The notes below the pieces were generated by a model. The model was not told the origin of the DNA, ran no database searches, and saw only the letters and a list, made by a program, of their open reading frames with translations. A program made the position numbers and the translations under genes. A DNA stretch of 64,000 nt from Helicostylum pulchrum (lineage: Eukaryota; Mucoromycota; Mucoromycetes; Mucorales; Mucoraceae), in assembly GCA_025677825.1 (NCBI GenBank), contig JAIXMO010000007.1, positions 372,001 to 436,000 of the forward strand. The letters run 5' to 3'. Of this stretch, positions 11,945 through 18,301 are shown one piece after another (within the stretch, counting starts at the first letter, position 1; every line of letters starts with the position of its first letter).

Positions 11945-13262
11945 GAATTTTTTGAACATTTACCTTTGTCCTCGGACAGAGGTATTACATATATTTAACT
12001 TGATGAAAATGAAAAACAAAACCTCAGTAAAACTCTGGCGGTTACTTGGATTGAAATATACTTAATCAATAAAGCCGTATTATTCTCTTCTCGCTATTTT
12101 CAAACTATTACGCGAAGGTGTGATATTATTTTAGTGAACACTACTTTGAGTTGTTTAGGTTTCATGCCCTTTTAACAATATGATTCCGTGCATTTTTTTT
12201 AAAACTTTCTCTTACGGGTTTTCAGAAGGTAGCTCGAACTATGGTACGTATTTCTTTTAAAAGAAAGCAAGCCTAGCGGGAGATTTAATTAATTAAATTA
12301 ATCCCCGGCCGGGCGTCCACCCTTCAATAGAATACCCTTAAATAGAGCCGCTATAGTAATCTTCATTATTTTATACACTATTTCCCTAAATTATTGGCGC
12401 ACTTTTTGAAAAAAAATTGCTTCAAAGTTCGAAAATAAATAGGTCCATTGACAAAAAAATAGATGGCCCGAAAATTATTTATAAATTGGCGCAAACCAAG
12501 GGTTGACCAAATGAATCAAATTGTTAGAATGATCATGATAGGATCTTGACTAAAAATATAGCTTATAATTGTTTGTCGTTCCTATTAAAATCTGAATTCT
12601 AATGAGACACCCTCTGGGAGCTGAAGATCCTGTAGTTGATGAATATGCAATACATGCTCTTTGAGTACTACGTTTAAACATAATTAAAAAGGTGGTGTAC
12701 TAGCAGGTCTGACACTTCTTAGGGTTTGTTGATCATATTGAGACCTTGCTCTTCTGTGTTGTTATCGAGGGGCTTCACCACGTCCAAACCTTGGCGGCAT
12801 ACGAAATGAACGAACAATGTGAAGCATGTTCAGACAAGCAGTCATATCACAATTTTATAGACGAGTAAAAAGTCTCTAATTGTTGCTATTCATGACTGGT
12901 AATCAGCAGGAGAATATCCAGTCAAAACAACAGGGAGAAGAGTTTTAAAAGAAAGATTGTAAACAGGGCCCTAATCTAATACGAAATTGTCTACTGGTAG
13001 TCTTGTAGCTATAAGCTGCTTGAATCATGTTGCTAGCTGGGTTATTTGTTAAATAGTTCGGCTTGTATCAACAATAGCGCTCACTTATTAATACATTTGT
13101 GCTACGCATATCAAGTCGAGGAAATACTATTATATTTATTAATGTAATCATACTACAGTACGACAGTGACTTTAACTGGTCTTTTTACAACGATGGGATC
13201 AAAAAATTAATCAGTCAAAAAGGCTTAAACAAAAAATACATCAGTCACTTGTAAAGGTTATA
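11945..13262. other. region upstream of the Fanzor gene
   Basis: No intact gene. A GC-rich 10-bp palindrome (CCCGGCCGGG, 12304-12313) stands out in AT-rich surroundings and follows an imperfect AT-rich inverted repeat at about 12277-12306. The word TTGGCGCA occurs twice, near 12395 and 12486. On the minus strand near 12680-12810 a proline/arginine-rich frame beginning MPPRFGRGEAPR is closed by a stop, suggesting another relic. The Fanzor frame is open without ATG back to about 13176. Confidence 0.45.
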
Positions 13263-15362
13263 ATGATGTCAAATCCCTCTTTTTCTTTTCATTATGGTTT
13301 TCTTATGATGGAACCGCCACAGAAATTAGTAGTGGTTAAAAGCTCAATTACTGGTATAGGTTGGAAGGATGCTTACAAGCAGCGTCTTATGGAACTGGTG
13401 AAGAATGTTAATATCATTGTGACACACACATACTTCTTTTTGAAATTTATATTTGTTAACGAGCTGGAGGATGATAATACCGATAATTTATTCAATTTAG
13501 AAGATCTCATCAATGAGGATTTTTTCAGAGAAGTCTTTATGTCGTTATTAAGTGCGTACAAGATGGAAAAGCGAAAGAAAACGGAGAAACTGGAAACATT
13601 CAAAACAATTATAAACAAGCATAGAGAAACTTTTCTTGAACGTACATCCTAAAAACCTATCGATCTAAAATACGGACAACAGATAGCGAACTACGAAGTA
13701 ACCAAAATCCGTACTGCTTATATCAACAATGTTACTTCTAATTTTGGAAACAAGTTGAGGAAGATGTTAAACTTAATAATGAAAAAGAAGGATAGGTTAC
13801 AGGAGGCTGACAAGTCCAAAGAAGATAGACGAAACGTTTACAGCCAAATGAACAAAGTCAAGTTAGCTGTATCTTCAAAAAAATTAGAGGATGCTACTTC
13901 AGAATTTTTAGGTCAAGATGGTATGAACACTATTAGAAGTTTTATTGGTTGTTTCTCTGAAGATTACAAGTTCGAGAAAGGCTCCATCTTTTATGATTGC
14001 AAGGCAAATTCTGTAAAGCATTTAAGGGCTTATTACCAAATCGCTAAAACGTGTGAAGCTTTGCAAGGTGGAAAATCTATAAACTGCTTTCCTATAAGAA
14101 CTGCGTTTATTCCCTGCTATATGACAATCGACACCTTAATTTTGAATACTCAAATTTTTAAAAACATGGTCTTGACGCATCTAGACAAGCAAGTAGTTTG
14201 GGGTGGAGCTATTAATCTCAATTCAAAAGGAATGGAACCACAAGGTCCTGATAAACAAATGACGTTCAGAGGAATGATATATACTGACGGTGTAGGCGTG
14301 TCTATTCTTAAACAAAACCATGACCCAAGGAAAAGAGGCGGTAAGAAGAGTAAAAAACAATTAGAAGACAAGGATTCCTTCAAATATATAGAAGATCTAA
14401 AAAAAGAAGACCTTCTTGCTGATGTTGGTAAATGCGTTTTGGTTGATCCAGGTCGAAGAGACCTACTATATTGTATGCATGAAAATAGCACTTCCCAAAC
14501 CAAAATGGTCTACAGATACACAAAGCTCCGTAACCGTTTTAAGCCTGATGAAGTGATTGCTGCTGAACTTTCTCTTTCTTACCATCATGCCACTTCTGTC
14601 AACAAGGAAAATTTTGTAAAATATCCAGAAGCTAGAGCAAATGTGTCTGAAGGCTTAAACAACTACTACGGCAATGAAGATATACCTCCAGGAGTCAGAG
14701 CTGCTGATCGTTTACCTTTTCGCAAAATGAAGCTTTCAAGTGTTATTAACATGAAGCAATCAGAACAGCGATTAGCTAAAAGGCTTAGACAGAAGTTCGG
14801 ACAAGACTCTGTAATTATCATAGGCAACTGGACCGTAGAAAATGTGAATTACCGCGAACCCACCAAAGGAGTCGGAATAAGAAACATGCTCAGAAAAGAA
14901 GGATTTAAGGTCTATTTGTTGAACGAGTTCGAAACTTCCTCATTATGTCCTTCTTGCAAAGATGGTACTACCTTAGAGAAATTTAAAGAAGTTAAAAACC
15001 CTAGACCGTTCAGACGAACTAGAAATCCTACTGTAATATGTCATGGTTTGCTAAGGTTAAACACAATATGTTAATATCTAAAATACTATGAAACTGACAA
15101 CCAGTTTGATACTTGTAGATGTACCAATGAAAACTGTCTACAAGATAGCAAGGAATTTCTAGTTCGTCGTCGTTTTTACAACAGAGATATGGCCGCAACA
15201 TTGAATTTTAGACATATTTTGTTTAGTTTGCGGGAAAACGGCATTAGGCCTGAAAGGTTCGTACGCAAGACAAACAGCCAATCACTTTCAACAACAAGAC
15301 CAAACCTCAAAAGAAAAGCATCAGCTTCTTCCTCCATCCCTGGCACTCAAAACAAAAAGTAA
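13263..15362 (+). CDS. Fanzor: TnpB-like RuvC RNA-guided nuclease, one in-frame stop
   Basis: Two exons, 13263-15055 and 15119-15362, encode about 678 codons in one frame. The frame is interrupted only by TAA at 13650-13652 (codon 130). The frame past the stop is clearly coding (QQIANYEVTKIRTAYINNV). Fanzors are eukaryotic homologues of transposon TnpB that cut DNA with a guide RNA. RuvC-I is LVDPGRRDLLY (Asp395). The canonical RuvC-II site reads IIIGNW with no glutamate at the expected place, and the glutamate lies in LLNEFETSSLC (Glu555), the rearranged Fanzor position. RuvC-III is YNRDMAATLNF (Asp621). The zinc knuckle is CPSC (562/565) with Cys593, Cys599 and Cys604; the 63-nt GT-AG intron falls between Cys593 and Cys599, and splicing restores CHGLLRCTNENC. 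Basic stretches (KRGGKKSKK; NLKRKASA near the C-terminus) could be nuclear localisation signals. The copy is either recently inactivated or carries a read-through or sequencing-error stop. Confidence 0.88.
15056..15118 (+). other. spliceosomal intron inside the Fanzor zinc knuckle
   Basis: GTTAAA donor, an ACTGAC branch-like word about 20 bases before the end, and a TTGTAG acceptor. Removing these 63 bases keeps the frame and rebuilds the cysteine pair of the zinc knuckle followed by RuvC-III. Unspliced, the frame ends in TTAATAT-type stops. The size matches neighbouring host introns. Confidence 0.85.
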
Positions 15363-15414
15363 CTTTCCCGTGCAGTTATCGCTGTAACCCATCAAGATAC
15401 AGAGTAAGTTTTAA

Positions 15415-15515
15415 CCAAATGCATAATGAACCTAAATTTTTTCACATCATGAACCTAATTTTTTTCATTTTGTGAGCCTATTTTTTTTCGATAAGTGAAC
15501 TAATAATTTCCGAAT
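15415..15515 (+). repeat. four degenerate ~23-bp repeats after the Fanzor gene
   Basis: Four diverged units follow each other: CATAATGAACCTAAATTTTTT, CACATCATGAACCTAATTTT, CATTTTGTGAGCCTATTTTT and CGATAAGTGAACTAATAATT. Each has a GTGARCCTAAT-like core followed by a T-run. They begin 50-60 bases after the stop, where TnpB-family guide RNA sequence is expected. Confidence 0.55.
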
Positions 15516-15901
15516 ATAGTGTAGACACCGTAAACTTGACACTTCATTAAAACGGAATTTGTATAATAATGCTTTAAATTACGTTAGAATGTAATTTTTT
15601 TTTATTTGATTATGCGTGGTACATGTGGTTTTTGATACAGGCAAAAAAACGTCTAAAAAGAAAATAGAAATTCGTTTTATACGCAATTATAACAGATCAC
15701 CTGAAAAAAAAATCACCCCATAACCCTTTTATCCAGTAAGACAATACATTTTGTTTATACTTTTAACAAGCAGTAGTTTTTTGGTGAAGGTACCTCTTGG
15801 GGGATGAGCTTTAATGAGTCAAAACAAGTCACTTTTTTTTTTATATCAAGGGATTATAATTTTTTTTCCAATTTCTTCTTCATACTTTATTTTTGATAAT
15901 A
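15516..15901. other. intergenic; GluRS promoter
   Basis: No gene is seen. AT-rich with T-runs; the right part should hold the promoter of the glutamyl-tRNA synthetase gene. Confidence 0.5.
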
Positions 15902-18301
15902 ATGAGTGGTTTAAAACTTGTTGTTGCTTCTAAGGCATCACCTTTCAGTTACGGTATGTACTCTTTAAAAAAGAAAAAGAAAGACGCGATAAAAAAAAAA
16001 CTAACGAGACACGTAAAAAAAAAAAGGCGTTCTCGCTGTTGCTGCTCAAGTGAATGCTGTCAAGAAGGGATCTGTAGAGATCGAACTTCGCGAGGGTAAG
16101 AACCTTGAGGGTGCTTCTAAGTCTGCTGCTTCTATTACATATAACGGGTAAGCTATTGTAATATATACAATATACTCGTCACTGTTTCTAAACGGCTCTT
16201 TTTTTTTTGGGTGAAGTGAAACTTACGAGTCCAACAACGCCATTGCTAGACTTATTGCCAGACTTAACCCTGAATCCGGTCTTTATAACCCCGAGGATCC
16301 TATTAGCTCTACCTTGATCGATCAATGGTTAGACTTTGCCGAATCCAAGTTATCTAGTACTGATTTCAAGGCACTTGATGCTACCTACAAGGAGCTTAAC
16401 AAGTACTTGACTCTTCGTTCATACATTGTTGGATACCAAGTTACCATTGCTGATTTTGTTATCTGGGGTACCTTGAGAGCTTCTCCTGTTTTCGCTCGTA
16501 TTGTCAAGACCAAGCCTGAAACTCTCGGTAATTATCTTGTTCGTTGGTTCGAATACATTACTTCTCTTTCTTCTTCAGAGTATGCTTTAACTGCTGTTCA
16601 AAAGGCTGAAAAGAACAACAAGGTAAATAAAAAAAAAAAAAAAAAAAGACGAGGGTGATAAATAATTGACGACATATATTTTATATGAATATATAGGGTT
16701 CTAAGGCTGCTGATCAAGGTAAATTCGAAATTGGTTTGACTGATGCTATGATGGGTAAGGTCTGTACTCGTTTCCCCCCTGAGCCTTCTGGTTATCTTCA
16801 CATTGGTCACGCCAAGGCTGCTCTTTTAAACCAATATTTTGCTGATACCTATAAGGGTAAATTGATTATTCGTTTCGACGATACCAACCCTAGTAAAGAG
16901 AAGTCCGAATACGAGGAATCTATCAAGGAGGATCTTGCCTTAATCGGTGTTAATTCCTCTGTTGTCTCTCACACATCTGATTTCTTTGACCAAATGTACG
17001 AACTTGCCCTCAAGTTAATTAAGGACGGTAAGGCATTCTGTGACGATACCGAACAAATGGCTATGCGTGAAGAGCGTACAGCTCGTATTCCTTCCAAGTG
17101 TCGTGATAACTCTATCGAGGAGAACTTGCGTCGTTTCGCTGAGATGGCCAAGGGCTCCGAAGAAGGATTAAAGAACTGTTTGCGTGCCAAGATCGATTAC
17201 AATAGTCCTAACGGCACCATGCGTGATCCTGTTATTTACCGTTGTAACTTGACTCCTCATCATTACACTGGTGATAAGTGGAAGGTTTACCCTACCTACG
17301 ATTTTGCTTGTCCTATTGTTGATTCTCTTGAAGGTGTGTCTCATGCTTTAAGAACCAACGAATACCGTGACCGTAACGTTCAATACGACTGGATGCTTGA
17401 ATCCCTTGGTATGCGTAAAGTTACCATTTGGGATTTCGGTAGAATTAACTTTGTATATACACTTCTTTCCAAGAGAAAGTTGCAATGGTTTGTTGATCAA
17501 GGTCTTGTTACCGGTTGGGATGATCCTCGTTTCCCTACTGTCCGTGGTATCCGTCGTCGTGGTATGACTATTGAAGCCTTAAAGCAATATATCTTGATGC
17601 AAGGTGCCTCTCAAAACACTTTACTTTTGGAGTGGGATAAACTCTGGGCATTAAACAGAAAGATCATTGATCCTGTTGCCCCTAGATACGTTGCTGTTCT
17701 TAAAGAAGGTGCTGTTGTCTGTAACGTTGCTGGTGCCACTGCTGAAATTAAGGAACACCCTGTTCACAAGAAGAACCTTGAACTTGGTAACAAGAAGACT
17801 CATTACGGTCCCAAGGTCTACTTGGATCAAGAAGATGCCAAGTCCCTTGAAGATGGCGAAGAAGTCACTTTAATGGATTGGGGAAATGTCTTTGTCCGTA
17901 AGATCGTTAAGGATGATAAGGGTGAAGTTACCAGTATTGATTTGGAACTTCATCTTGCTGGTGATTTCAAGAAGACCAAGAAGAAGTTGACTTGGTTGAC
18001 TGTTGATGAAGATGCCACCGATTGTCTCTTGCTTGATTATGATTACTTGATTACCAAGAAGAAGGTCGAGGAAGGTGATGAGGTTAAGGACCTTGTTACC
18101 CCCGAAAGTGAGTTCAGATATCCTGCTATTGCTGATGGTAACATTAGAGACTTGAAGAAGGGTGATATCTTCCAATTCGAGCGTAAGGGTTACTTTATTC
18201 TTGATGCTCCTGCTACTGCCACTGAGCCTGCTCACTTTATTCGTATTCCTGACGGTAAGGCTGCTACCATGGCTTCTAAGGCTGATGTATCCAAGAAATA
18301 A
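15902..18301 (+). CDS. GUS1: glutamyl-tRNA synthetase, cytosolic
   Basis: Four exons (15902-15953, 16027-16147, 16217-16622, 16697-18301) give 727 aa, close to yeast Gus1 (708 aa). It charges tRNA-Glu with glutamate in the cytosol. Residues 1-190 form a GST-like N-terminal domain (SYIVGYQVTIADFVIWG), used in fungi for docking to Arc1/MetRS. The class I catalytic core has HIGH as HIGH itself (228-231, in PPEPSGYLHIGHAKAA) and the KMSKS-type loop as LLSKRKL near 449-455. An archaeal/eukaryotic GlxRS beta-barrel anticodon-binding region follows, ending in a Lys-rich tail. Codon use is strongly biased (GCT, AAG, GGT), consistent with high expression, and differs from the Fanzor gene next to it. 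A short AAATAAAAT polyadenylation-like signal lies just after the stop. Confidence 0.97.

Follow-up and report, generated by a model that had tools for sequence, protein, structure and literature searches.

Does the stretch at positions 13263 to 15362 of a 64,000-nucleotide segment of the Helicostylum pulchrum genome (contig JAIXMO010000007.1, positions 372,001 to 436,000, forward strand; hereafter, the window) encode a functional Fanzor, the eukaryotic homolog of TnpB, as a first-pass annotation proposed, and what kind of genetic unit carries this gene? The observations described here indicate that the locus is very probably a Fanzor1 copy that has decayed and is carried by a non-autonomous Tc1/mariner-type transposon. 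Direct support comes from the similarity to Fanzor1 in sequence and fold, from the TA at the target site, from end sequences in common with mariner-type elements, from the existence of multiple copies, and from the lesions of the gene itself, a nonsense codon and a deletion.

Family and structure of the gene

The motifs on which the original assignment was based (LVDPGRRDLLY, LLNEFETSSLC, YNRDMAATLNF and CPSC) are all legible from the frame that starts at 13263, and once positions 15056–15118 are taken out, the residue numbers D395, E555 and D621 hold and CHGLLRCTNENC arises. A profile search, a fold search and the way in which the catalytic residues align bear out the identification as a Fanzor and specify it as Fanzor1. 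A phmmer search of the PDB sequences started with the 439-residue core identifies Fanzor1 of Parasitella parasitica (PpFz1) with an E-value of 1e-101, followed by those of Spizellomyces (SpuFz1; 3e-26) and Guillardia (GtFz1; 5e-5); given the similarity to PpFz1, the motifs are not chance matches. With a profile of 29 rows, the known Fanzor1 proteins again come first (PpFz1, 1e-252; SpuFz1, 5e-97; GtFz1, 2e-31), the next two rows being unrelated (E-values of 0.19 and 1.3), so that the best match is not to an unrelated family. Via the sister protein P0002, the RuvC triad aligns with D383, E541 and D606 of SpuFz1, the equivalents in the window being D395, E555 and D621. The VDPG signature of RuvC-I spans residues 394–397, and the TDG motif of the WED domain is present, with D342 and G343 invariant; DPG at RuvC-I and TDG in WED are among the Fanzor1 features named in PMC10711439. 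The zinc finger of the CCCC type is complete in the spliced product (CPSC and C....C), with C562 and C565 found in 28 of the 29 alignment rows and the two cysteines of the second pair in 15 and 14 rows, respectively, the remaining rows mostly containing gaps. The structure predicted from an input in which both TAA codons were read as tyrosine and the intron was kept has the Fanzor1 fold, RuvC included, with the triad placed by alignment. A database search lists 85 proteins, headed by EDC94DRAFT_639311 (P0001) from H. pulchrum; the organisms named among these matches are Mucorales or other early-diverging fungi.

The claim that 13263..15362 is a single reading frame fails, given that the interval contains a TAA at 13650–13652 (codon 130) and another TAA at 15072. 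The latter codon is intronic, within a predicted GT-AG intron, so that the gene consists of the following parts:

13263..15055, + strand: Fanzor1 exon 1, interrupted by the TAA at 13650–13652 and by a 42-nt deletion at 14521/14522 (translation; sister-copy and protein alignments)
13650..13652, + strand: private nonsense codon TAA, whereas all 13 sister copies in the same genome have TAC
15056..15118, + strand: predicted 63-nt GT-AG intron with an in-frame TAA (copy alignment; protein continuity)
15119..15362, + strand: Fanzor1 exon 2, with the second pair of zinc cysteines, NRD of RuvC-III and the C-terminus (spliced translation; alignments)

Excision of 15056–15118 joins CHGLLR to CTNENC and yields 679 codons including the stop, with codon 130 as the sole internal stop. 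Three observations speak for the intron: the in-frame stop occurs in 14 of 14 aligned copies, an 18-nt deletion in one sister falls within the equivalent of this interval, and PpFz1 and SpuFz1 align without a break over the join of a sister protein.

The 42-nt in-frame deletion lies just after RuvC-I and takes out SNQKGVETKSRKFR, a conserved stretch with the pattern SNQKxxETKSRKFR. Of the 28 other alignment rows, 25 carry these residues, as does SpuFz1; P0001, the public model of the window gene itself, is one of the three exceptions, and P0003, from another assembly, lacks them too. Among the 13 sister copies, one (C79) has the same deletion, nine retain the stretch, and in the remaining three a larger segment is deleted. 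An explanation of the 42-nt stretch as an intron was considered and rejected: exact GT-AG removal would take out 40 nt, as counted by eye, and would not yield the window sequence, and the relatives and SpuFz1 have the stretch as protein. The catalytic residues D395, E555 and D621 are thus retained, as originally reported, but with the nonsense codon and the loss of 14 residues beside RuvC-I, the intact RuvC set does not imply a working nuclease. Judging from these lesions, the window copy is most likely inactive, no active nuclease being made. Five sister copies (L009, L012, L015, L019 and L021) contain a short tandem duplication over the start-codon region (window positions 13234–13274) that is not present in the window copy.

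The transposon and its relatives

The gene is the cargo of a mariner-type transposon. On both sides, the homology among dispersed copies ends at fixed points between TA dinucleotides, and the inverted arms were detected independently of this analysis of copy boundaries. The element is organized as follows:

12376..15521, + strand: non-autonomous mariner-type transposon of 3146 bp carrying Fanzor1 (end of homology to dispersed copies; inverted arms)
12374..12375, no strand: left TA target-site duplication (aligned copies with unrelated flanks)
12374..12448, + strand: left inverted arm of 75 nt, the left TA included, with 73% complementarity to its right counterpart
12449..13262, + strand: 5' region with no long coding frame detected and with a deletion of about 260 bp around 13122–13130 relative to sisters (copy comparison)
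15363..15523, + strand: 3' non-coding right end with variable 22–23-nt repeats, the putative place of a guide-RNA scaffold by analogy with SpuFz1 (PMC10432273)
15449..15523, + strand: right inverted arm including the right TA at 15522–15523 (inverted-arm search)
15524..15543, + strand: right flank, a candidate guide sequence if a guide RNA is made, the length being taken from other Fanzors (PMC10432273 and PMC10711439)

The 22–23-nt repeats (GAACCTAATTTTTTTCA...) occupy window positions 15422–15490, and their copy number differs among sister copies. Both ends were measured in ten sister copies, of which six span 3.43–3.51 kb and four are shorter.

The left terminal ~31 bp of the element are about 90% identical to the terminal inverted repeats (TIRs) of DDE_3-bearing Tc1/mariner-type elements of the same genome. 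A genome search with the left terminus identifies L022, an element of 1.45 kb with 31-bp TIRs that match this terminus at 88–90% identity and a DDE_3 frame (E-value of 3e-27), and L025 is a second, truncated copy of the transposase; altogether, there are at least 125 matches to such transposases in the genome. In the 11 Fanzor copies read on both sides, no open stretch longer than ~120 codons was found beyond pieces of the Fanzor frame, and a genome-wide transposase search (117 of 261 candidates scored) gave no match to a DDE transposase inside the Fanzor copies. Flanks were surveyed with a pattern that leaves a 10-base prefix free ahead of the TIR, which yielded 54 ends. Sorted by hand, 11 of these are left ends of Fanzor elements, 14 are right ends of Fanzor elements, and 29 belong to neither group. 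A transposase match lies within 2 kb of 10 of the 29 other ends as opposed to none of the 11 Fanzor left ends (26 of the 125 matches were compared by script and the rest by eye). Given the similar TIRs, the lack of an internal transposase and the distribution of transposase matches around the ends, the Fanzor element would be, most simply, a non-autonomous passenger of the mariner-type system.

Genome-wide, 98 Fanzor-like matches merge into 59 loci, of which 14 are at least 80% identical and the other 45 more divergent; with 96 of 126 candidates scored, these counts are lower bounds. At the same scope, no further Fanzor-like match was found inside the window, in agreement with the first-pass annotation that considered the gene the only such nuclease there. 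Its picture of a lone gene in an island needs correction: in the genome, this is one of 14 copies of the family and one of at least 59 Fanzor-like loci. Similarly, what it described as a gene-poor, repeat-rich island between housekeeping genes is mostly the transposon itself. Downstream, ~0.8 kb past the transposon end, come an Arc1p-like frame (16314–16655) and then a frame for a class I (E/Q) tRNA synthetase (16736–18301).

Only one of the 14 family copies, C125, has an uninterrupted spliced frame (692 residues). Another Fanzor-like locus, 42–49% identical (G000:C136:454118-455447), is located on the same contig ~18 kb past the window end, with a mariner transposase match nearby (452491–453123). 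In the divergent relatives C96 and C84, no convincing TIRs were found in the 5.0 and 4.5 kb examined, respectively. The locus L024 (G000:C81:397300-399300, about 74–443) is a 370-bp element with TIRs of the same kind and ~129 bp in common with the Fanzor right end, in which neither a transposase nor a Fanzor frame is seen; it resembles the Spizellomyces 'ghost' loci described in PMC10432273.

Two readings of the gene compete with that of a decayed Fanzor1. One is that it encodes, instead of Fanzor1, some other protein of the TnpB or Cas12-like kind, e.g., a Fanzor2, and general TnpB models do match it, if weakly (Pfam Cas12f1-like_TNB, E-value of 0.03; NCBIfam guided_TnpB, 0.049). At E-values of 0.01 or lower, guided_TnpB matches two of the 29 alignment members and Cas12f2 one, the window copy being in neither set. 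The weak model matches leave the family undecided, and it is the matches to PDB sequences that settle it as Fanzor1; an identity other than Fanzor1 is hardly credible. No Fanzor2 row appears in the PDB sequence, 29-row profile or fold searches. The other reading, a working or domesticated host Fanzor gene in which splicing bypasses the stop, is assumed by P0001 (575 amino acids), which splices around the TAA at 13650, and is compatible with the persistence of the RuvC triad. However, the intron in P0001 was rejected because it cuts out residues that relatives, e.g., P0003, carry; moreover, the conserved SNQKxxETKSRKFR stretch is gone, and the gene is bounded on both sides by transposon ends. 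Finally, the pairwise divergence among ten of the 14 copies, with the four shortened ones left out, is nearly equal at codon positions 1, 2 and 3 (0.036, 0.040 and 0.043), which points to copies decaying after insertion, without visible constraint. A functional host gene at this locus is thus improbable.

The left flank and a proposed role of Fanzor1

Outside the left TA, the family displays a signature that, in the window, corresponds to one further feature:

12370..12373, + strand: TTTA beside the left TA, a candidate footprint of a target-adjacent motif (TTTA + TA; flank counts)

Among the 54 ends surveyed, TTA stands right before TA at 10 of the 11 left ends of Fanzor elements, at 2 of their 14 right ends and at 2 of the 29 other TIR ends, and the longer TTTA at 9, 0 and 0 of these, respectively; the Fisher test of the left-end signature gives 8e-7 against the other ends and 2e-4 against the right ends. 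Two left ends read later agree (C96, TTTA-TA; C118, TTTTA-CA), raising the count to 12 of 13; in one more Fanzor copy, L021, this end is gone. Apart from the signature, the 11 copies have unrelated flanks, so that these are independent insertions. In S. punctatus, as described in PMC10432273, a conserved CA precedes the left inverted repeat, and the biochemically determined motif is CATA. The parallel suggests that (T)TTATA might be the target-adjacent motif of the H. pulchrum Fanzor1 family.

A cycle compatible with the decayed-passenger reading can be outlined, in which the RNA and cleavage steps are modelled on other Fanzor1 proteins as presented in PMC10432273, PMC10711439 and PMC11423790. 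A mariner transposase would mobilize the element in trans. Fanzor1 encoded by intact relatives would bind an RNA that comprises the right end of the element and the adjoining host flank, up to ~15 nt past the TA, and this complex could cut the matching empty site beside (T)TTATA. Repair from an occupied copy would then restore or spread the element.

Several observations weigh against this scenario. The predicted folds of the right end (40, 75 and 100 nt) are AT-rich, vary by copy and include no convincing guide-RNA structure; at 40 nt, 11 of the 14 copies share one predicted stem, which the window copy lacks, and no Rfam family reaches the gathering score anywhere in the window. A search of the genome with the joined flanks of the 11 copies yields no junction-spanning match and no empty site. 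At the position of D621, 19 alignment rows contain a residue, which is aspartate in 15 of them, and the near-equal codon-position divergence belongs on this side as well. The first catalytic aspartate of the transposase is expected in the FIDES motif; L022 has FINES, with asparagine in this position, as opposed to FIDES in L025, which, for its part, is truncated.

It is plausible, although we rather doubt it, that the left TTTA, instead of being a Fanzor motif, belongs to the transposed unit or reflects where the transposase that moves Fanzor elements prefers to insert, perhaps in an orientation-specific way. The failure to recover an empty site fits this interpretation, as do the Fanzor copy C78, which has no left motif, and the ghost-like L024, where the left flank ATG-TA speaks against a requirement for the motif in such short elements; furthermore, the 29 control ends mix TIR variants, so that other transposases may move them. 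On the other hand, the motif is rare at the right ends of Fanzor elements and at the other mariner-type ends. Alone among the flanks of the 11 copies, the left flank of C78 is clearly repetitive (at least ten other places); it is a dispersed repeat that terminates at the junction and hence may be secondary. With four probe strings, the opposite end of this repeat was not found in L016. Returning to (T)TTATA as a Fanzor1 motif, it may be, in a proposal that we find nearly as easy to accept as to doubt, that Fanzor1, as cargo, gives rise to a selective footprint absent from mariner-type elements with similar ends but without Fanzor. Insertions would be kept or spread only if Fanzor recognizes the empty site, by the motif and the right-flank guide.

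Relation to known Fanzor1 systems

The closest structurally characterized relative, PpFz1 (PDB 9cf0–9cf3; PMC11423790), contains a cyclophilin-binding FRI insertion of ~100 residues that the H. pulchrum family lacks: residues 986–1092 of the PpFz1 chain lie opposite ~10 residues in two sister proteins. The motif reported for PpFz1 there is ATN, in contrast to the putative (T)TTATA, and the window copy, unlike PpFz1, is broken. The SPu-1 elements of Spizellomyces punctatus, which encode SpuFz1, are similar according to PMC3627910 and PMC10432273 in that they comprise a multi-copy Fanzor1 family with inverted repeats, putative TA duplications, conserved bases just beyond the left end (CA; CATA motif) and short ghosts without Fanzor. 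SpuFz1, however, is ~24% identical over the structural alignment with the predicted model, and PMC10432273 reports that no transposase was found between the Spu-1 repeats, whereas H. pulchrum has transposase elements with similar TIRs. Among the Tc/mariner Fanzor1 elements of Bao and Jurka (PUl-1, PUl-4 and PGv-1; PMC3627910), PUl-4 is similarly Fanzor1-only, with mariner-like TIRs and TA duplications; by description, these elements differ in host and family, and the left-flank signature was measured in H. pulchrum. Also compared by description, ROr-4, PBl-3 and MCi-4, three of the families that the same source lists for Rhizopus, Phycomyces and Mucor, are called MuDR-type in it, with 9-bp duplications, as opposed to TA in the H. 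pulchrum element.

Since both Mucorales and mariner elements have previously been described as carrying Fanzor1, the contribution of the locus is a family from a further genus. Mucor circinelloides, Rhizopus oryzae and Phycomyces blakesleeanus, all Mucoromycotina, are likewise Fanzor1 hosts. Table 1 of PMC3627910 lists 10, 4 and 3 Fanzor1 families for these species, respectively, and the PpFz1 structure has been published for Parasitella (PMC11423790). In the open-access literature searched, no paper was found that pairs Helicostylum, or Mucoromycota, with Fanzor; the publications listed for Fanzor with target-site duplications or transposon-adjacent motifs do not name the host in their titles or abstract openings. 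Within the accessible parts of the same literature, no earlier account was found of the left-flank contrast between similar ends with and without Fanzor.

The public model P0001 conceals the nonsense codon under a called intron, and the locus suggests that this model be corrected. Beyond that, a single genome offers Fanzor-bearing and transposase-bearing elements with similar ends, the uninterrupted copy C125 and a testable motif, (T)TTATA. If the footprint is real, it would constitute natural evidence that a eukaryotic Fanzor takes part in maintaining a cut-and-paste transposon or in its homing; the mariner-type elements would serve as an internal control. Through a flank signature tied to the Fanzor cargo, the role of Fanzor in its host transposon thus becomes testable.
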